Positions 36,836 through 45,006 of a stretch of 64,000 bases of DNA are shown here, piece after piece (the first letter of the stretch is position 1; each line of letters opens with the position of its first letter). The notes under the pieces are model-generated. The model was not told where the DNA came from. It ran no database searches and was given only the letters and a program-made list of their open reading frames with translations. The position numbers and the translations under genes are program-made. The DNA is taken from contig LWTK01000049.1 of assembly GCA_003326205.1 (NCBI GenBank), positions 13,819 to 77,818 of the forward strand. The letters run 5' to 3'. Origin of the DNA: Nostoc sp. ATCC 43529. GTDB taxonomy: Bacteria > Cyanobacteriota > Cyanobacteriia > Cyanobacteriales > Nostocaceae.

Positions 36836-37357
36836 CTACTTAACTCCTAGCAATTCCACATCAAACAGCAGGGTGGCGTTGGGTGGAATTACGCCACCTG
36901 CACCACGAGAACCATAACCTAACTCTGGCGGGATGATTAAGTTACGACGACCGCCTACTTTCATTGTGCTAAGTCCTTCGTCCCAACCTTTGATTACTTG
37001 TCCGACGCCGATTTTAAATTTGAAAGGTTGACCGCGATCGCGCGAACTATCAAACTTAGTACCATCTTCTAAAGTGCCGGTATAGTGAACCTCTACTGTT
37101 TGTCCGCGTTCAGGAGTCGCCCCAGTTCCCTCTTTTATCTCAACGTACTTCAATCCAGAGGGGGTAGTGACGGCATTAGCATCAGACATAGTATCACTCG
37201 CAATTAAGATATTGTTTTCAGTTAAAATTGTGGACGCTGGCGGCGTTGAGGTTAATTGGTCAGCAATGGCAGTATTCTGTTTACTGCCTACTTGCCCCAC
37301 AGCCAAAAGCACAACAAACACAGCTATGAACGCCACACTCAGGAAAATTGCTTTCAA
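36836..37357 (-). CDS. FKBP-type peptidyl-prolyl isomerase with N-terminal signal anchor
   Basis: A 173-residue protein. The first ~22 residues form a hydrophobic signal or anchor segment ([18 protein letters not shown]), so it should act in the periplasm or thylakoid lumen. The FKBP domain (~68-173) contains [43 protein letters not shown] and LLFDVELL, all typical of an active PPIase. The start is TTG, since an in-frame TGA lies two codons upstream (37361-37363) and no ATG occurs in the signal segment. GGGAG precedes it by about ten bases. It would catalyse cis-trans isomerisation of prolyl bonds in exported proteins. Confidence 0.9.
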
Positions 37358-37436
37358 AATTCAGTTCTCCCTACTTAGGTAGCCTGGTCAAAACATTACC
37401 AACAGAACACATTTAGTTTAAATCAGAAAGGGCAAC

Positions 37437-37760
37437 CTAGCGCCAAAGCTTATTTTCTAAATCGCGCACTTGACGCTCTAAACGGTCAATTCTACCCCGA
37501 AGTTCGTCCACTTCCGACTGCCGAGCCACCCCCAAATCCTGCATCATATTTCGCATTTGCCGTTGCATCTGGGCGTCCCAGTTTCCCTGTTCTGACTTTA
37601 ACTGCTGGGCAATATCATCTATAACCGCCTTGGCTTGTTCGGGATTGAGCTTACCATCTTTGACCAAATCATCACTGACTTCCCGCAGTTTTTCTGCAAC
37701 TAAAGACGTTGTGCCAATACCCATCATCATTAGTTGTTGCAACCAGTTGTTGCTGTCCAT
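37437..37760 (-). CDS. Small phasin/UbiK-like helical protein
   Basis: A 107-residue protein from the ATG at 37760, which is preceded by AGAGGATACGGAG; the longer frame needs TTG at 37778. The N-terminal half is helical (LVAEKLREVSDDLVKDGKLN). The C-terminal part (SEVDELRGRIDRLERQVRDL) is a clear heptad coiled coil like that of UbiK/BMFP and phasin-type proteins. It probably oligomerises, possibly at membranes or granules. The exact role is unknown. It lies next to FKBP on the same strand with a 79-bp gap. Confidence 0.75.
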   Translation of the reverse strand: MDSNNWLQQLMMMGIGTTSLVAEKLREVSDDLVKDGKLNPEQAKAVIDDIAQQLKSEQGNWDAQMQRQMRNMMQDLGVARQSEVDELRGRIDRLERQVRDLENKLWR

Positions 37761-37897
37761 ACTCCGTATCCTCTTCAATTTATTTCAAACAGCCGACCTT
37801 AGCTCCTGAGTGTACGCGATCGAGCTATGCTAAAAGCGTAGTTACTCTAGCCTACAACTCTATTCTGGCAAATTAGCGAATACAGGCATCAAAGGAC

Positions 37898-38206
37898 GTG
37901 GTGATAGAACTCCTCAAGTTTAAAGTTGCTCCTGATTTAAAGGAAAATTTCATCCAGAAAGATGCGGAAATTTGGACAACAGCACTAGCTGAGTATCCTG
38001 GATTTCTGGGTAAAGAGGTTTGGCTCAACCCCGACGACCCCTCAGAAGTTACCTTTATCATTCGTTGGGAAAGTTTTGAACACTTGGATGCTATACCCGA
38101 ACAAGAATTAGAAGCTATTGAAGCAAAGTTCGTCCAAGCATTGGGAAAATTCTATCCAATTGTGGAGTCTGCAAACTATCAAGTTTTAAAAGGATTGGCT
38201 GACTAG
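37898..38206 (+). CDS. TIGR03792-like small protein (ABM-type ferredoxin-like fold)
   Basis: A 102-residue protein starting with tandem GTG codons (37898 or 37901); AAAGGA lies just upstream, favouring the second one slightly. VIELLKFKVAPDLKENFIQKD, YPGFLGKEVWLNPDDPSEVTFIIRWES and ANYQVLKGL fit the cyanobacterial TIGR03792 family, related to antibiotic-biosynthesis-type mono-oxygenase folds. The biochemical role is unknown. The gene stands alone, divergent from the phasin-like gene. Confidence 0.78.
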   Translation: MVIELLKFKVAPDLKENFIQKDAEIWTTALAEYPGFLGKEVWLNPDDPSEVTFIIRWESFEHLDAIPEQELEAIEAKFVQALGKFYPIVESANYQVLKGLAD

Positions 38207-38379
38207 AAGTCGCTACTACACAAAGCTTAGTCCACAACAAATATTTAGCTAGATGCTGGTTGTAATACATTCTTTAACAACCTGTAGTCATTCGCACTAA
38301 TTATAGCTACGATAAAAACTGTGTAAATTTTTTATCTTCAAGCTACAGTATTGCTGATTATACAGGTAAAACTACTGGC

Positions 38380-39216
38380 ATGGAAACTAACGAGTTAAAG
38401 TTTGTCTTAAAGTTATTGGGATTTAATGATTATCGAGCAGGGCTTAATGCCTTTGATAGTTTTAAAACCGAGAAAAATAAAATTTGTAAAGCATTAGGCG
38501 ATCGCGAGCTGGTAGACTATACCCGCGAGATTACCGCAGTTAAAATTTTACCGCCTGGTCAAGCGGTACTCAAAAATCCCGGCGAAGTGCCCATTGCAGA
38601 CAAAGAACTCAAGGTACTAGAGCAAATCGCTAAAGCTTCCGGTAAAATCGCTCCCAGCAAAATCACTTCAGCAAAAAAAGCTGCGGAACGAGATGAGATA
38701 TTAAAGGTGTTGAGCGATCGTGGTTTGATTGAAGCTGAAAAAGGAATTAAAAAAAATAAACCTGAAGTTTGGCTGACTGAAAGAGCAATTGAGTATTTAC
38801 GGGATGACTATAACCCTAACAAAGGTGTTCAACCTGCCATTAGCTTAGAACTTCTGGGTAATTATCTACGCTTTTTACGAAAAACTCTGCGCGTGAAGCC
38901 AGAGGAAGTTTCTACTGCGCTACCTACCGTTAATACCGCTGATAAACAAATCAGCGATGAAGAAATTTTACAAATTATTGAGAAATTAGACCGAGAATTG
39001 GGTACTGACAATTATTTACCCATTTTTCATCTGCGGGATAAATTACAACCGCCATTTTCGCGAGATGAATTAGATAAGGCTTTGTATCGTTTGCAAGGGA
39101 GCGATCGAATTGATTTGAGTTCCCTATTAGATCCGACACCCTACACTCCAGAACAAATTGATGCTGGAATTTTACAAAAGGTGGGTGGTTCGCTGTTCTT
39201 TATCACTGTGAACTAA
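38380..39216 (+). CDS. Winged-helix-like protein, first gene of the ATPase/FtsK-nuclease operon
   Basis: A 278-residue soluble protein that I do not recognise as a named family. Several segments look like winged-helix or helical DNA-binding units: residues ~75-140 (KELKVLEQIAKASGKI, then DEILKVLSDRGLIEAEKGI and VWLTERAIEYL), and ~190-250 (SDEEILQIIEKLDRELGTDN, then FSRDELDKALYRLQGSDRI). It ends with a beta-like GGSLFFITVN. The gene is followed after 55 bp by a P-loop ATPase gene and then the triple-domain FtsK-nuclease gene. A DNA-binding or loading subunit is the simplest guess, and is inference. Confidence 0.7.
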   Translation: METNELKFVLKLLGFNDYRAGLNAFDSFKTEKNKICKALGDRELVDYTREITAVKILPPGQAVLKNPGEVPIADKELKVLEQIAKASGKIAPSKITSAKKAAERDEILKVLSDRGLIEAEKGIKKNKPEVWLTERAIEYLRDDYNPNKGVQPAISLELLGNYLRFLRKTLRVKPEEVSTALPTVNTADKQISDEEILQIIEKLDRELGTDNYLPIFHLRDKLQPPFSRDELDKALYRLQGSDRIDLSSLLDPTPYTPEQIDAGILQKVGGSLFFITVN

Positions 39217-39271
39217 AAATACAGAAACTTTTTTCGTCAACATTAAGTTTGCTCAATTATCCGAATTAATT

Positions 39272-41365
39272 ATGGCATCTATCAACGACATCATTAAACG
39301 CGAGGTTAACCCGTTTGACCTAGTAAATTTGAAGACAGGTAATTTTTGGGGTCAAAATCAAGAATTAGAGTCTGTGGTCGAGTCAATTCATCAAGAGGCA
39401 ATAACAGAAATTGAAGGATTTTTGGATTTAGTAGCTAAAGATAATTGTAGTCGTACTGTTTTACTTGTAGGTGATACTGGTTCTGGCAAAAGCTATCTTT
39501 TAGGTAGACTAAAACGTACCTTTAACTCAAAGGCTTTTTTTGCTTACATAGGCCCTTGGGTTGATAACGATTATATGTGGCGTCATCTGCTAAGGAATAC
39601 AGTTGATAGTTTAATTCAAGTACCAGAAGGACAAGAAGAATCTCAGTTAATACTGTGGCTAAAAAATTTATCTGTTTTCACAAAAACAAATCTGAAAAAG
39701 CAGCTTTTTAATGATAGTTTTTGGCAATTATTATTAGGCGATCGCCAAAAATTTGTTAACCATCTTAAAAAGACTTATTTAAAAGCAGGTATCTACAATC
39801 CTGATGTTTTTTTTGGAGTGTTACACGATCTTACAGATCCAGAACTGTACCCTTTAGCCTGTGAATGGTTAAGAGGAGATAATTTAAGCGAAGAGTCAAT
39901 GCAAGCTTTGAGACTTAGACACTGCATTGATGCAGAAGACGCAGCAAAGAATATTTTAGCTAATTTTGGTAAAATTTCTACTGCAACTCAACCCATTGTT
40001 TTATGCTTTGACCAAGTTGAAACCTTGCCAAATTTGACTTCTAATCCTCAACCTTTATTTAATATAAATACTACTATACATAGCGAAAATTTGAAAAATT
40101 TTCTCATTATTATCACTATAGTCACCAATATTTATAGGCAAATTTATCGTTACATTCAACAGTCAGACAAAGCCAGAATTGATCGATTAGTATCACTAAA
40201 ACCCATTAATTTTAATCAAGCAGAAGCACTTTGGACTTACCGATTACAAAGTATACATCAAGAAGCTGAGCCTAAGCCTGATTCACCTATTTTTCCTTTG
40301 AATAGACAATTGTTAGAGGAAAATTTTCCTGGTGGTAAAACTATGCCAAGAACTGCGTTTATTATTGGCAGGTTAGAGTATCAACAATATAAACTTTCTC
40401 TATTGAAAGAAATTATAGTAATTAATATTCCACCAAAAACGCCAAAACAGTCAGAAGGTCAACAAGGACTAATAGATATTAAAATAGTAAAAAATGACCT
40501 TACCTCAAATATTAGCGATGGACAAAAAGAACAAGCTGAATTTGAATTAATCTGGCAGCAAGAATATAAAAAAGTTCAGGATAAGCTAGCTAAAATATCT
40601 CTTTTAGCAGCACCTGACCTCATACGGATGATGCAAGAAGCTTTAGAGGCATCACAAGTAGAGGCAATTAAGCCTAAACTCATCAGTGGCACTTATGCCA
40701 GCTATTCCTTAAGTTATCAATCGCCATCTAAGCGAGAAAATATAGGAATAGTCTGGACAGAAGATGCTAATATGAATAGTTTTTATAACGTGATGAATGC
40801 TTGTCAAAAAGCTATTCAACAAAATGTTTGTCAAAGGCTTTATTTTATTAGACTTGGAAGTGTAGGAAATGCGAAACTTGCTGGATATAAAATCTATAGT
40901 CAGATTTTCACGGGTACTAAGCATATTCACATCAAACCAAATCTTGCTTCAGTTCACTATTTAGCGACATACCATAGCTTAGTTAATTCTGCACAGGCTC
41001 AGGAATTAGTTGTTGGTGGTAAAGTAATAACTTTATCAGCATTACAATCTTTAATTCGTGAGTCTAAAATTTTGGAACAATGTACTTTATTGCAAGAATT
41101 AGGAATTGTTGCTAAGCAAAAACCCGATCCAGATAAGAGAACTAAAGATTTGCGACCAGTCAAAGATTTCTTGTTGAATTTAGTAAAAACCCAAGGTTAT
41201 ATGGGAGTGCCTACTTTAATTTCACAAGGAGTTAGTCAATTTTCTTACGTGGAAGAAACTGAAACTCAACATTTAATTGACTTATTATGCCAGGAAAAGA
41301 AAGTAAAAATTATTAACCCTAAATCTAAGTTGGAAGACCAGTTAATCCGTTTACTCACTAACTAA
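39272..41365 (+). CDS. Large P-loop ATPase, second gene of the FtsK-nuclease operon
   Basis: A 697-residue protein. Walker A is GDTGSGKS (67-74). The likely Walker B is PIVLCFDQVE (241-250), with Asp247-Gln-Val-Glu250. It starts NPFDLVNLKTGNFWGQNQEL, an ORC/STAND-like opening in which the protein describes a region before the P-loop. The C-terminal half (~450-697) has no clear motif, but includes helical and winged-helix-like parts (LINLLCQEKK-like end, VKDFLLNLVKTQGYMGVPTLI). It may be an AAA+/KAP-like loader or sensor. Only 29 bp separate it from the next gene, so co-expression is very likely. Confidence 0.75.
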   Translation: MASINDIIKREVNPFDLVNLKTGNFWGQNQELESVVESIHQEAITEIEGFLDLVAKDNCSRTVLLVGDTGSGKSYLLGRLKRTFNSKAFFAYIGPWVDNDYMWRHLLRNTVDSLIQVPEGQEESQLILWLKNLSVFTKTNLKKQLFNDSFWQLLLGDRQKFVNHLKKTYLKAGIYNPDVFFGVLHDLTDPELYPLACEWLRGDNLSEESMQALRLRHCIDAEDAAKNILANFGKISTATQPIVLCFDQVETLPNLTSNPQPLFNINTTIHSENLKNFLIIITIVTNIYRQIYRYIQQSDKARIDRLVSLKPINFNQAEALWTYRLQSIHQEAEPKPDSPIFPLNRQLLEENFPGGKTMPRTAFIIGRLEYQQYKLSLLKEIIVINIPPKTPKQSEGQQGLIDIKIVKNDLTSNISDGQKEQAEFELIWQQEYKKVQDKLAKISLLAAPDLIRMMQEALEASQVEAIKPKLISGTYASYSLSYQSPSKRENIGIVWTEDANMNSFYNVMNACQKAIQQNVCQRLYFIRLGSVGNAKLAGYKIYSQIFTGTKHIHIKPNLASVHYLATYHSLVNSAQAQELVVGGKVITLSALQSLIRESKILEQCTLLQELGIVAKQKPDPDKRTKDLRPVKDFLLNLVKTQGYMGVPTLISQGVSQFSYVEETETQHLIDLLCQEKKVKIINPKSKLEDQLIRLLTN

Positions 41366-41394
41366 ATAGATTAACTTTGATACAATTTTAGCCA

Positions 41395-43953
41395 ATGCAC
41401 TACCTGACACAAGCTTCTGAAATCCAGACACAAATTGCAAAATTCGCCTTGGCTAAAGTGCTATGGCTGGATACAGAAGTAGCTAATTGGAATACTCCAT
41501 ATCCCAAGTTATCATTAATTCAGATATTAGCAGAACCCACAGACTCTACAGGAAAGTTTGCTTATATTCTTGATGTATTGAATAAACCTGATTTGATTGC
41601 ACTGTTTATTCAGCAAATCATGGTTAATTCTCAAATTGAGAAGGTATTTCATAATGCAAGTTTTGATTTAAAGTACTTGGGTGAAAAATCAGCACAAAAT
41701 ATTACCTGTACCCTGAAGTTAGCAAGAAAGATTACCCTGAAAAAGTTACAAACATCGAATTTAAAGCTGAAAACTTTAGCGGCGGAACTTTGTCAATTTT
41801 CTCATGTCGATTCAGAAGAAGGTAGAAGCGACTGGGGAAAGCGTCCTTTGAGTGACAAGCAGCTACATTATGCGGCTATGGATACAGTCTATTTGGCTGC
41901 TGTTCATCGCCGCTTATTAGAAATTGATAGCCCTAATTTTGTAACTAATATTTTTAATGTTATGTCTGATGATTCCAAAAATATATCTTTAACAGCGACT
42001 AAAGTCAGAGTTGCGTTTGAATGTCCTCGGCTATTTTATTTACATCAAAAATTTGGCGTAAATACTTTATTTATACCACAAAATAATCAAATTGGTATTG
42101 GTAATAGTTTTCATAACTTGGCTGATAGTTTTATTAAGTTAGCTGTTAGCGAATCAAGATTTACAGAAATATTCAAAACTAGTACATCTCAATTAAACAT
42201 AGACGAAATTGCCTCTCTTATGCAACAGCTTTTTTATGAAATTAAATTTTCTAATTATCTAGAAAAAGCTGTTGAACAAGATGCAAGTGCAGCACAACCA
42301 CTGTACAAAGTTTGGCAAGGATTACAAGGATTAATCAGACGCTTTGCAGAATTACTTGTTGTTAATCGACGTTATTGTGGTGCAGAAGCAGTTATTCGCA
42401 ACACTTTTGTTTCTCAAGAACGGAAGCTTGAGCATTATTTTCAATTACCTAATGGCACACAACAAAGGGTAGGAGGAGAATTTGATTGTTTGGTCTATAA
42501 TTTTGAAGTCAAGCGGTTATGCGTACTTGAATTTAAAACTTATCAACCAGTAGATCCATCAGCACAATTGGCTCAAGTTGCTCTTTATAGTTATATGCTT
42601 TGGCATCAGAAAAAGGTAGCGGTTGATTCGGCAGTTTATTGTGTTTTGCCAGAGTTTAAAGAGTATCAATATTCTTGGGAACAGCTAGAAAATAACGTGC
42701 ATCAATTGATTCCCTATAAATTACACCAGATGCAACAATGGTTAAGTTGGGAACCACCTCATCCTAATTCGCCACCGCCAACAACTCAGCCTCATCTATG
42801 TGAAATTTGTCCGCAGCAGCAAAAGTGTCAGACTTTTTTTGTTTCGCCTAGTTTACCATCTAAAGATAAGAATAATGGCGGGCAAGATGCCCACACCACA
42901 AGAGGAAATTCTGTTGATGCTGATGCTATTGGTGGAGAGTTGGTTACGACTTTGGAATCATTTGGTATTAGTGTAGATTATCACGGTGCTGCTGTTGGGC
43001 CGGCTTTTATTCGAGTGAAACTTAAGCCTCATTTGGGTGTGAAAGTTAATGCACTTTTGAAATTGTCAGCGGATTTACAAGTGCAGATGGGGTTAGCAAA
43101 TCCGCCGTTAATTGCGCCGCAAGCTGGTTATGTTAGCGTTGATTTACCTCGTCCAGATCGGCAAATTGCGAGTTTTGAAGAGTATATTCAGCCGCAATTT
43201 TTACCTCCAACAGTACCTATAAAAATTGCGATCGGGTTGAATATTGAAGGAGAATTGGTAGAGGCTGATTTATCTGATGCGAATACTTGTCATTTCTTAG
43301 TTGGTGGTACAACTGGTAGCGGTAAGAGTGAATTTCTGCGATCGCTCCTCCTCAGTCTCCTCAATCGTCACTCCCCAGAATATCTGAAAATCGCCCTAGT
43401 TGACCCGAAAAGAGTCACATTTCCAGAGTTTGAGAAAATGCCTTGGTTATATTCGCCAGTTGTTAAAGATGGCGATCGCGCGATCAAACTGATGGATGGA
43501 TTAGTTGCAGAGATGGAATTGCGTTATCACCACTTTGAAAAAGCTGGCTGTGCCGATTTAAGTACTTACAACCAACGCTCTACAAAGATTTTACCTCGAA
43601 TTGTCTGCATTTTTGATGAATATGCCGACTTTATGGCAGAAAAAGAAATCCGCACATCACTAGAACAAAGTATAAAACGACTCGGAGCAATGGCACGCGC
43701 CGCTGGAATTCATCTAATTATCGCCACCCAACGCCCAGAAGCCAAAGTTGTCACACCCATAATTCGCTCAAACTTACCAGGACGAGTTGCTTTACGTACC
43801 GCCAGTGAAGCAGACTCAGCTATTGTCTTGGGAGGAAAACAAACAGCAGCAGCTTATCTGCTGGGTAAAGGCGATTTACTCTACCAAATAGGCGCTCAAA
43901 TGCACCGTTTACAAAGCTTATTTGTTAAAAATATTCAGTTGCCATCAGCATAA
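41395..43953 (+). CDS. Fusion of DEDDy exonuclease, Cas4/AddB-like Fe-S nuclease and FtsK-type motor
   Basis: An 852-residue protein with three parts. (1) ~1-180, RNase D-like 3'-5' exonuclease: LDTE (D26, E28), HNASFD (N87, D91) and HYAAMD (Y159, D163) complete the DEDDy set. (2) ~195-480, PD-(D/E)XK nuclease: D364, E379-x-K381 and QVALY (Q394, Y398). Cysteines C210, C469, C472 and C478 match the 4Fe-4S pattern of Cas4/AddB/RecB-type nucleases. (3) ~510-850, FtsK/SpoIIIE motor: Walker A GGTTGSGKS (637-645), VDPKR, Walker B VCIFDEYAD (D741, E742), ATQRP and LLGKGDLLY. There is no membrane segment and no C-terminal gamma domain, so it is not a cell-division FtsK. A role in DNA processing, repair or defence is inferred. 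Confidence 0.9.
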   Translation: MHYLTQASEIQTQIAKFALAKVLWLDTEVANWNTPYPKLSLIQILAEPTDSTGKFAYILDVLNKPDLIALFIQQIMVNSQIEKVFHNASFDLKYLGEKSAQNITCTLKLARKITLKKLQTSNLKLKTLAAELCQFSHVDSEEGRSDWGKRPLSDKQLHYAAMDTVYLAAVHRRLLEIDSPNFVTNIFNVMSDDSKNISLTATKVRVAFECPRLFYLHQKFGVNTLFIPQNNQIGIGNSFHNLADSFIKLAVSESRFTEIFKTSTSQLNIDEIASLMQQLFYEIKFSNYLEKAVEQDASAAQPLYKVWQGLQGLIRRFAELLVVNRRYCGAEAVIRNTFVSQERKLEHYFQLPNGTQQRVGGEFDCLVYNFEVKRLCVLEFKTYQPVDPSAQLAQVALYSYMLWHQKKVAVDSAVYCVLPEFKEYQYSWEQLENNVHQLIPYKLHQMQQWLSWEPPHPNSPPPTTQPHLCEICPQQQKCQTFFVSPSLPSKDKNNGGQDAHTTRGNSVDADAIGGELVTTLESFGISVDYHGAAVGPAFIRVKLKPHLGVKVNALLKLSADLQVQMGLANPPLIAPQAGYVSVDLPRPDRQIASFEEYIQPQFLPPTVPIKIAIGLNIEGELVEADLSDANTCHFLVGGTTGSGKSEFLRSLLLSLLNRHSPEYLKIALVDPKRVTFPEFEKMPWLYSPVVKDGDRAIKLMDGLVAEMELRYHHFEKAGCADLSTYNQRSTKILPRIVCIFDEYADFMAEKEIRTSLEQSIKRLGAMARAAGIHLIIATQRPEAKVVTPIIRSNLPGRVALRTASEADSAIVLGGKQTAAAYLLGKGDLLYQIGAQMHRLQSLFVKNIQLPSA
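42871..42903. repeat. Dispersed GGCGGGCAAGATGCCCAC element inside the FtsK-nuclease gene
   Basis: The tract AATGGCGGGCAAGATGCCCA, with the following CACCACAAG, has the short palindrome GGGCAAGATGCCC. It is read in frame as NNGGQDAHTTRG. It falls exactly in the linker between the Fe-S nuclease and the FtsK motor. From memory this motif is a common dispersed sequence in Nostoc genomes; that was not checked. Confidence 0.55.
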
Positions 43954-44283
43954 AACAAATTTCAAAAGTTATATTGAATACTCGAATCCTGTTTTTAGAG
44001 GATACAGAGGGGAAGTTGCAGTAATTCTTCCGCCACTGCTTGTGATTGGAACTTTGTAAAAAACTAGTACCAAATCAGGCTAAAATTCAGTACAAGGTGA
44101 TGCACTATTTTTTGTCAAGATTGTCATATCAAGTTCGGATAATTACTTATTATTAAAATCTCTCCGCGTCCCCGTGTCCCCGTCTCCCCGCGTCAGTCTT
44201 AATGATAAGTCTTCAACCGAACATGATATCATTGGTCATTTGCAAAGGACAAAAGACAAGCTAAAAATATTAAATTTTGAATT
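43954..44283. other. 330-bp non-coding stretch
   Basis: No gene is supported. A CGCGTCCCCGTGTCCCCGTC tract lies near 44165-44190, one of the dispersed CCCCG repeats. The rest is AT-rich and probably contains the terminator of the FtsK-nuclease operon and the promoter of the molybdopterin enzyme, neither of which can be pinpointed. Confidence 0.5.
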
Positions 44284-45006
44284 ATGAGCTTATTTCGTGT
44301 CAAACCTCCGCAATTATCACGCCGGAAATTTTTACAAATATCTGGAGTTTCTGGGGTAAGTTTTCTTCTTGGTGGCTGTGGAACACCAATATTTGAAGAT
44401 GTCGTGGGTAAACTTTCCGAACCTCTCAATCAAAAGGTAGAAAAGTTAATCTTTCAACCACAAAAGCTTGTACCAGAATTTTCTTTTAATGAAATTGAGC
44501 CAGAAGCATTAATAGTTAATAGCTTTAGATATAATCCCATTATTGATTTAGAAAAATATCGTTTAATTGTTGATGGTGAGGTTAACAATCCTCTTAATCT
44601 CAGCATGACAGAAATTCAAAATTTGCCGCTGACTTCAATGATTATTCGCCATGTTTGTGTGGAAGGTTGGGCTGCGATCGTTCAATGGGGTGGTGTACGT
44701 TTGCAAGAAATTATTGCCCTTGCTCAACCTAAGCCGAATATCCAATATGCTTACTTTAAATCTGCTGATGGATATTATGAAAGTTGGGATATTGCTTCAG
44801 TGTTACATCCCCAAACTTTGTTAGCTTATCAAAAAAATGGTGATACTTTGCCAGTAGAAAATGGTGCGCCTTTGCGTTTAGCTTCACCAATTAAACTCGG
44901 TTACAAGCAAAGTAAATGGGTGACTCAAATTACATTGACTAGTTATTTATCTCCTTTTAAAGGTTACTGGGAGGATCAGGGTTATGAATGGTTTGCAGGA
45001 ATTTAG
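44284..45006 (+). CDS. Tat-exported sulfite-oxidase-family molybdopterin oxidoreductase (MsrP/YedY-like)
   Basis: A 240-residue protein. It begins with the twin-arginine motif SRRKFLQISG, then a hydrophobic segment and LLGGCG, a lipobox-like cysteine at ~36, so it may be a Tat-exported lipoprotein. The cofactor-binding cysteine is in IRHVCVEGW, followed by GWAAIVQWGGVRLQEII and YYESWDIAS, as in sulfite oxidase and YedY/MsrP. Only the Moco domain is present, with no heme and no dimerisation domain. It would reduce or oxidise a small sulfur- or carbonyl-containing substrate outside the cytoplasm; the true substrate is unknown. Confidence 0.87.
   Translation: MSLFRVKPPQLSRRKFLQISGVSGVSFLLGGCGTPIFEDVVGKLSEPLNQKVEKLIFQPQKLVPEFSFNEIEPEALIVNSFRYNPIIDLEKYRLIVDGEVNNPLNLSMTEIQNLPLTSMIIRHVCVEGWAAIVQWGGVRLQEIIALAQPKPNIQYAYFKSADGYYESWDIASVLHPQTLLAYQKNGDTLPVENGAPLRLASPIKLGYKQSKWVTQITLTSYLSPFKGYWEDQGYEWFAGI

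Follow-up and report, generated by a model that had tools for sequence, protein, structure and literature searches.

A cyanobacterial operon coupling an Orc/Cdc6-like ATPase to a nuclease-motor fusion protein: a probable modular, restriction-like defence system

The window analysed in this study, a stretch of 64,000 nucleotides of Nostoc sp. ATCC 43529, encodes a protein that unites two nucleases and an FtsK-type motor in one chain, which raises the question of what such a protein does in the cell. The protein is the product of gene C, the third gene of an operon that runs in the order A-B-C, all on the same strand, and that is located between dnaB and pyrF/E. Our answer, which we consider probable, is that A-B-C is a modular restriction-like cyanobacterial defence operon, namely an Orc/Cdc6-coupled HerA/FtsK capture system. 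Moreover, sequence comparisons indicated that gene B and the C-terminal tail of A form a swappable cassette, which is apparently a new finding; the rest of A and C remained alike while this cassette was exchanged. The fusion in C is less novel than first thought, and gene B shows the most unusual behaviour. As far as the portions of the literature consulted show, the Orc/CDC6-coupled class rests on prediction, and what most deserves a test is the exchangeable B cassette. Natural alleles of A-B-C whose differences lie mostly in B are ready-made swap material. Should the DNA that is attacked change when B is exchanged, this would show an Orc/Cdc6-type ATPase working as a specificity subunit, with C, if the reading is true, as a compact machine that unites motor and nucleases in a single chain. 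The features of the operon in window coordinates are as follows.

38380..39216, + strand: gene A, winged-helix protein, 278 aa
39076..39213, + strand: C-terminal tail of A, about residues 233-278, exchanged along with B
39272..41365, + strand: gene B, Orc/Cdc6-like AAA+ ATPase, variable cassette, 697 aa
39470..39493, + strand: Walker A of B, residues 67-74, from the class tally
39998..40021, + strand: Walker B of B, residues 243-250, from the class tally
40517..41071, + strand: alpha/beta domain of B, candidate inactive restriction endonuclease (REase)-like domain, about residues 416-600, from the element order of the AlphaFold2 (AF2) model
41153..41362, + strand: C-terminal winged helix of B, about residues 628-697, from the AF2 helix/strand order
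41395..43953, + strand: gene C, 852 aa, exonuclease, nuclease and motor in one chain
41398..41919, + strand: DEDDy (RNase D-type) 3'-5' exonuclease of C, residues 2-175 (DNA_pol_A_exo1, PF01612, E 8.9e-26)
41989..42831, + strand: PD-(D/E)XK nuclease PDDEXK_1 of C, residues 199-479 (PF12705, E 5.8e-12)
42925..43149, + strand: FtsK_alpha domain of C, residues 511-585 (PF17854, E 7.6e-9)
43216..43737, + strand: FtsK_SpoIIIE motor of C, residues 608-781 (PF01580, E 1.1e-38)
43303-43329, + strand: Walker A of the C motor, GGTTGSGKS

Gene C and its two partners

The frame of gene C was uninterrupted across 852 codons, and the Pfam domains along it were ordered DNA_pol_A_exo1, PDDEXK_1, FtsK_alpha and FtsK_SpoIIIE. 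The sequence-only reading of this locus had recognised three modules in the frame and had named their active-site residues and cysteines; all three modules were recovered by Pfam (PF01612, PF12705 and PF01580), and the named residues were each kept in 44-47 of 47 aligned homologues that shared 56-90% identity with the window protein. In the exonuclease, D91, Y159 and D163 were present in all 47 homologues, N87 in 46, and D26 and E28 in 45 each. In the nuclease, D364, K381, Q394 and Y398 were kept in all 47, as were the four cysteines (C210, C469, C472 and C478), and E379 was found in 44 and was an Asp in the remaining 3. The occurrence of D364, E/D379 and K381 in 47/47 homologues suggested that the REase-fold nuclease of C is active. 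Furthermore, the tallied Walker A residues of the motor (G637, G638, G641, K644 and S645) and D741/E742 were invariant (47/47).

The cysteines of the nuclease, C210 and C469-x2-C472-x5-C478, are predicted to hold an Fe-S cluster in the manner of Cas4 and AddB, in which a C-x2-C-x5-C pattern is combined with a distant upstream cysteine. Cas4 models matched this domain weakly (best E 7.7e-5), and a search of it against the PDB by sequence gave no credible match. The exonuclease profile matched the structures of diDNase, NrnC, RNase D and Rrp6, and the domain was 51% identical over 179 residues to a stand-alone frame of 307 codons in the same genome. The motor profile matched the FtsK structure 2iuu (E 1.8e-64), and its matches among the PADLOC models were SspH (E 1e-66, the best) and mad8 (E 8e-28). 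The alpha and motor domains are common to C and the division proteins FtsK/SpoIIIE, whereas no FtsK membrane or gamma model matched in C (Pfam, E up to 1), as the earlier reading had stated. That reading had not included the FtsK-alpha domain or the partner genes A and B, nor had it connected C with the published class discussed below. It had treated C as a stand-alone protein, and in this respect its domains held but the stand-alone view did not, as C is one of three genes that usually occur together.

This conserved operon was seen in a single scan of genome contigs that used peptide patterns of C. The best 80 of the 142 relatives were kept, and further relatives may exist outside the cyanobacteria. 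A, B and C were found together within the length limits in 66 of the 80, in addition to the window, and the other kept relatives include contig ends and broken copies. Gene A was found in 45 of 373 genomes of the phylum, of which 43 belong to the order of the window or closer and 2 hold partial matches elsewhere in the class. C-like matches, with FtsK-only and RNase D-only matches counted too, occurred in 46 of 386 genomes, and 51 of the 100 genomes from the order had B matches at E<=1e-10, weak ones among them.

HTH_45 matches were obtained in 28 of 56 homologues of A (best E 2.1e-4). The AF2 model of A (mean pLDDT 83.9, pTM 0.54) was compatible with such a protein but gave nothing at E<=0.001 in Foldseek, its weak matches including winged helix-turn-helix (wHTH) proteins, and A had no PADLOC match; a DndG-like role of A may be inferred. 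In the case of B, the AF2 model (mean pLDDT 86.9, pTM 0.85) had chains of ORC/Cdc6 as its top Foldseek matches, with E from 1.6e-4 and a low whole-chain TM score, and the model thus argues for membership of B in the Orc/CDC6 family of AAA+ proteins. AAA_16 was matched in all 58 B homologues at E<=0.01, with the B of the window falling under Pfam's own cut-off, and the B profile had no match by sequence among the PDB chains. At position 248, where the catalytic Glu of Walker B usually lies, the 101 B proteins carried Gln (59), Asn (41) or His (1), and B may accordingly work as a nucleotide switch and not as a fast motor. Between the AAA+ core and the C-terminal wHTH lies an alpha/beta domain whose helices and strands follow a REase-like order in the AF2 model; no conserved (D/E)xK was present in it in the class tally, and Foldseek gave no REase fold match. 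The PADLOC matches among the 58 B homologues were weak and were distributed over mad8 (30), PtuA (12), Avs2 (11), SspF (4) and DndF (3).

Exchange of gene B with the tail of gene A

The exchange was analysed in 67 loci, comprising the 66 complete loci and the window. Among 63 locus pairs in which C was more than 82% identical (pairs that are not independent, one locus entering many), B was less than 70% identical in 29 and A in 6. For example, the identities of C, A and B were 95, 87 and 49 in the pair L044/L082, 96, 83 and 54 in L054/L113, and 97, 89 and 64 in L053/L072. In five chosen pairs, the identity of the DNA fell inside the last part of A and recovered near the start of C, and the final part of B was common as well in L053/L072 and L113/L054. 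Between the window and L037, the stretch of low identity extended from about 39080 to 41380 with a partial recovery from about 40880, and the identity across the tail of A dropped from about 90% to 63-71%. In L035/L037 and in the window/L037 pair, the likeness extended to the DNA upstream of A.

In four pairs with low B identity, the synonymous divergence (dS) was 1.24, 2.52, 1.03 and 1.06 for B compared with 0.15, 0.26, 0.07 and 0.15 for C. The dS of B was about 7-14 times that of C in these pairs and similar to it in four control pairs; dS values above 1 are saturated, which makes the ratios rough. Positive selection was considered as the cause of the divergence of B and was not favoured, since the synonymous sites diverge too and the dN/dS of B was 0.07-0.36 in the eight pairs; that of C was 0.10-0.25 in all eight. 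In addition, three Brasilonema strains (L044, L082 and L085) with C proteins 89-95% alike carried B proteins from three clades that are shared with other genera. The contrast in dS and the clades of the Brasilonema B proteins indicate that B was replaced by recombination rather than diverging in place.

Exchange of this kind is familiar from Type I restriction, where the specificity part HsdS is exchanged and the nuclease and motor stay constant. The comparison is one of analogy, with no homology claimed, and B differs from HsdS in being an ATPase. The pattern is what an exchangeable recognition subunit would show, and B may recognise the target. In the mechanism proposed here, B, an Orc/Cdc6-like protein without the Walker B catalytic Glu, would act with the winged helices of A as a DNA-selecting switch. 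C would form an FtsK-type ring, draw the selected duplex through and digest it with the PD-(D/E)XK nuclease and, where present, the 3'-5' exonuclease. From the sequences we infer each of these steps, namely the formation of a complex, recognition by B, translocation and cutting, together with a role against invaders.

Known systems and the phosphorothioate question

The Orc/CDC6-coupled HerA/FtsK capture systems were predicted as an anti-invader class by Rakesh, Aravind and Krishnan in 2024 (PMC10853773). According to the parts of its text compared here, the class has an active REase, FtsK-alpha in one set, sometimes a 3'->5' exonuclease fused to the motor, an Orc/Cdc6 AAA+ protein with a C-terminal wHTH and an inactive REase domain ahead of it, and a partner with multiple wHTH domains (PMC10853773). 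A-B-C shares with that description the Orc/Cdc6-like AAA+ protein (B), the FtsK-alpha and motor domains, the predicted active REase and the exonuclease fused to the motor, and on these sequence features it would belong to the predicted class. In A-B-C, exonuclease, four-cysteine nuclease and motor are a single polypeptide, and the text parts compared say nothing of B being exchanged together with the tail of A. The sequence-only reading had held that no protein of this domain order was described. This claim is weakened by the predicted class, which includes the exonuclease fused to a motor, and the fusion of exonuclease, nuclease and motor was not described in the portions seen of PMC8569181, PMC12839542, PMC7159879, PMC8195603 and PMC2743648.

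Several other systems resemble A-B-C in part. SspFGH and DndFGH likewise comprise three genes, one for a P-loop ATPase, one for another component and one for a protein that ends in an FtsK-type motor. However, C matched only positions 1412-1742 of the 1766 of SspH, no more than 4 of the 58 B homologues were matched by SspF models (best E 3.1e-5), and the DndF models reached 3 of 58 weakly (best E 0.0019). A homologous set of SspF, SspG and SspH was not found, as only the motor of C matches SspH and A has no PADLOC match. In the case of MADS, the mad8 model matched the motor of C at the E value given above and, less well, 30 of the 58 homologues of B (weak matches, best 2e-4), a likeness that, as far as tested, consists of shared P-loop regions. 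In HerA-NurA end resection, a DNA pump is coupled to a nuclease as in C, but C fuses two nucleases of other families to its FtsK-alpha/FtsK motor.

Because SspH was the best PADLOC match of the C motor, dndC was sought in genomes picked by hand from the order of the window, 38 of them C-positive and 60 taken as C-negative. DndC was present in 90 of these 98 genomes, with matches in 36/38 C-positive genomes (over the curated cut-off) and in 54/60 C-negative genomes (p 0.48). The C-negative set was impure: C is present in G391, G406 and G407, B or remnants are present in others, and the genomes from G386 upward were not screened for C. After the three C-carrying genomes were moved, the counts were 39/41 and 51/57 (p 0.46). 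When the 58 genomes scored for both were divided by B, with weak B matches (E above 1e-100) taken as B-negative, dndC was found in 29/30 and 23/28 genomes (p 0.097). Co-occurrence did not show a dependence on phosphorothioate (PT), as dndC had no association with C. The model TIGR03238, which we take to be that of DndF, matched 0/66 genomes but was also silent in 14/14 controls and was therefore uninformative.

A PT link of A-B-C is nevertheless possible, in which case A-B-C would supply the restriction that the orphan Dnd modification in Cyanobacteriales lacks and would spare PT-marked DNA. Among cyanobacteria, dnd clusters were described only in Cyanobacteriales, where dndFGH are absent, in the portion consulted of PMC8569181. 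The presence of dndC in 36/38 C-positive genomes, the near confinement of A to the order of the window (43/45 genomes) and the closeness of the C motor to SspH in PADLOC also speak for such a link. On the other hand, dndC is about equally common without C, and two C-bearing genomes, G051 and G159, had neither a dndC match nor a dndD above the cut-off. In the genome of the window, dndC (C32:114913-116247, L207) and dndD lie on contig C32, whereas the operon lies on contig C49, and no PT modification gene was among the four neighbours typed at 36836-45006. Furthermore, a Pseudanabaena plasmid from outside Cyanobacteriales carries a copy of A-B-C, and it was absent from the set of 38 plasmid records that matched dndC at E<=1e-60 (the chromosome was not searched). 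We regard this explanation as rather unlikely. The same modest standing is given to a joint reading, in which A-B-C would confer DNA-shredding immunity with B and the tail of A as an HsdS-equivalent specificity module and with a restriction arm that reads orphan PT marks. A-B-C makes it testable whether orphan cyanobacterial phosphorothioation has a restriction partner.

Genomic setting, rival roles and variant forms

A ParA-like gene was found in the flank of 48 of 80 loci, a count that includes a second ParA type, and it often lay directly downstream of C and was followed by IleS. The main ParA is a core gene, present in 106 of 120 genomes of the order; a functional link to it was rejected on this account, and ParA may instead be the neighbour at an ancestral site. 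G024 and G042 retained only the end of C next to the core ParA, so that the operon was probably once beside ParA and then decayed, and such remnants point to repeated loss. In the genome of the window, the core ParA is on contig C55 (L165) and no A, B or C was found beside it. No clean empty site was obtained for the window locus, as four C-less genomes of the same genus align only on the pyrF/E side.

A different set, comprising a long ParA, a ParB-type protein and sometimes a winged-helix protein, recurred beside A-B-C remnants or A-B-B loci (L175:6573-8836, L166:11028-13908, L167:9979-12095 and L171:10427-12836). In L175, ParA has a HSDR_N-like N-terminus and its ParB-type partner has Rho_N; the partner in L171 has 312 aa. 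This set is possibly a further defence module.

The earlier suggestion that a motor feeds two nucleases for defence, plasmid control or repair retained its domains, and defence appears to be the likeliest of the three roles, with the other two as lesser rivals. In a housekeeping role like that of HerA-NurA or AddAB, in DNA-end processing or chromosome handling, C would resect breaks and A-B would load C. The same kinds of activity, a motor and nucleases, are united in C, its motor profile best matches cellular FtsK structures, and the neighbourhood by the core ParA recurs on chromosomes. However, A (45/373) and C-like proteins (46/386, with the partial types counted above) make a minority gene set, the operon is absent or decayed in some close relatives, and in a repair enzyme it would be unusual for B to be replaced wholesale while C stays constant; we consider such a role improbable. 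Less probable still, to the point of being very doubtful, is a selfish or mobile-element module that serves plasmid maintenance or competition rather than host defence. A copy on a conjugative plasmid and the ParA/ParB modules near several loci are in its favour, but among 72,556 plasmid records only one contained B, the ParA that commonly adjoins the operon is a core gene, and no mobile-element gene was among the recurrent neighbours typed, the typing being partial.

The restriction-like defence reading of A-B-C is favoured by the domains with their invariant active sites, the conserved operon and the exchange of B described above, and further by the plasmid copy, by SspH, a part of PT-linked defence, as the best match of the motor, by the repeated loss and by the independent prediction of the class as anti-invader in the text consulted of PMC10853773. 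Several observations weigh against it. The commonest chromosomal site adjoins ParA and IleS and is not a known defence island, although defence genes were not systematically sought among the neighbours. No modification gene that would account for a distinction of self from non-self lies within the operon, and a recognition role of B is argued from the exchange alone. The flank upstream of A was unlike in the other three of the five pairs scanned, so that transfer of the whole block from A to C contributes there. Some copies of C are without the exonuclease, which is therefore dispensable. Moreover, A and C are widely separated in three genomes (G051:C1:1450778 and 2399619; G233:C1:1478908 and 3622836; G101:C12:219386 and 367223), so that adjacency is not required. 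B is scarce outside chromosomes, with the single plasmid record mentioned and no relative among 92 pattern matches in viral contigs, in which C had two distant FtsK-type matches. Finally, no experiment on such a system was found in the literature, which was covered by titles and abstracts and included few subscription papers.

Variant forms were surveyed in twelve regions picked for their B copies. Operons of the form A-B-B, with no C in the stretch, were found in L171, L174, L175, L180 and L181. L177 held B-B and A-B without C, and L176 held A-B alone; A-B-C stood next to extra B copies in L172, L173 and L182 and was plain in L178 and L179. In the B tree, the first and second copies of A-B-B formed two clades separate from most B proteins of A-B-C. 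Operons with a second Orc/CDC6 gene, alongside a KAP NTPase, are mentioned in the portion consulted of PMC10853773, and the A-B-B operons may therefore be a form of that class; they differ in having no KAP gene directly adjacent in flanks that were only partly typed.

The exonuclease was missing from C in L172 and in the Pseudanabaena plasmid copy, and an internal deletion cuts it in G278. The plasmid copy (L114:5253-14058, NC_019690.1) is an A-B-C operon on a conjugative plasmid, and its A and B are about 40% identical to members of the family. It lies near a SNF2 helicase gene that matches the ZorD and DpdE models. Enlarged forms of C were also observed. In L179:2810-7432, a C of 1540 aa carries TPR and pentapeptide repeats ahead of the exonuclease, nuclease and motor, and L170:6925-14873 encodes a C homologue of 1121 aa, with an extra stand-alone Cas4-like nuclease gene upstream of A. 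In L169:3216-13079 (G305:C16), an insert of about 7.1 kb interrupts C close to its Walker A codons (about residues 637-638); the insert encodes two phage-integrase-family proteins and a DUF6262 protein and presumably resembles a Tn554-type element; both halves of C are open.

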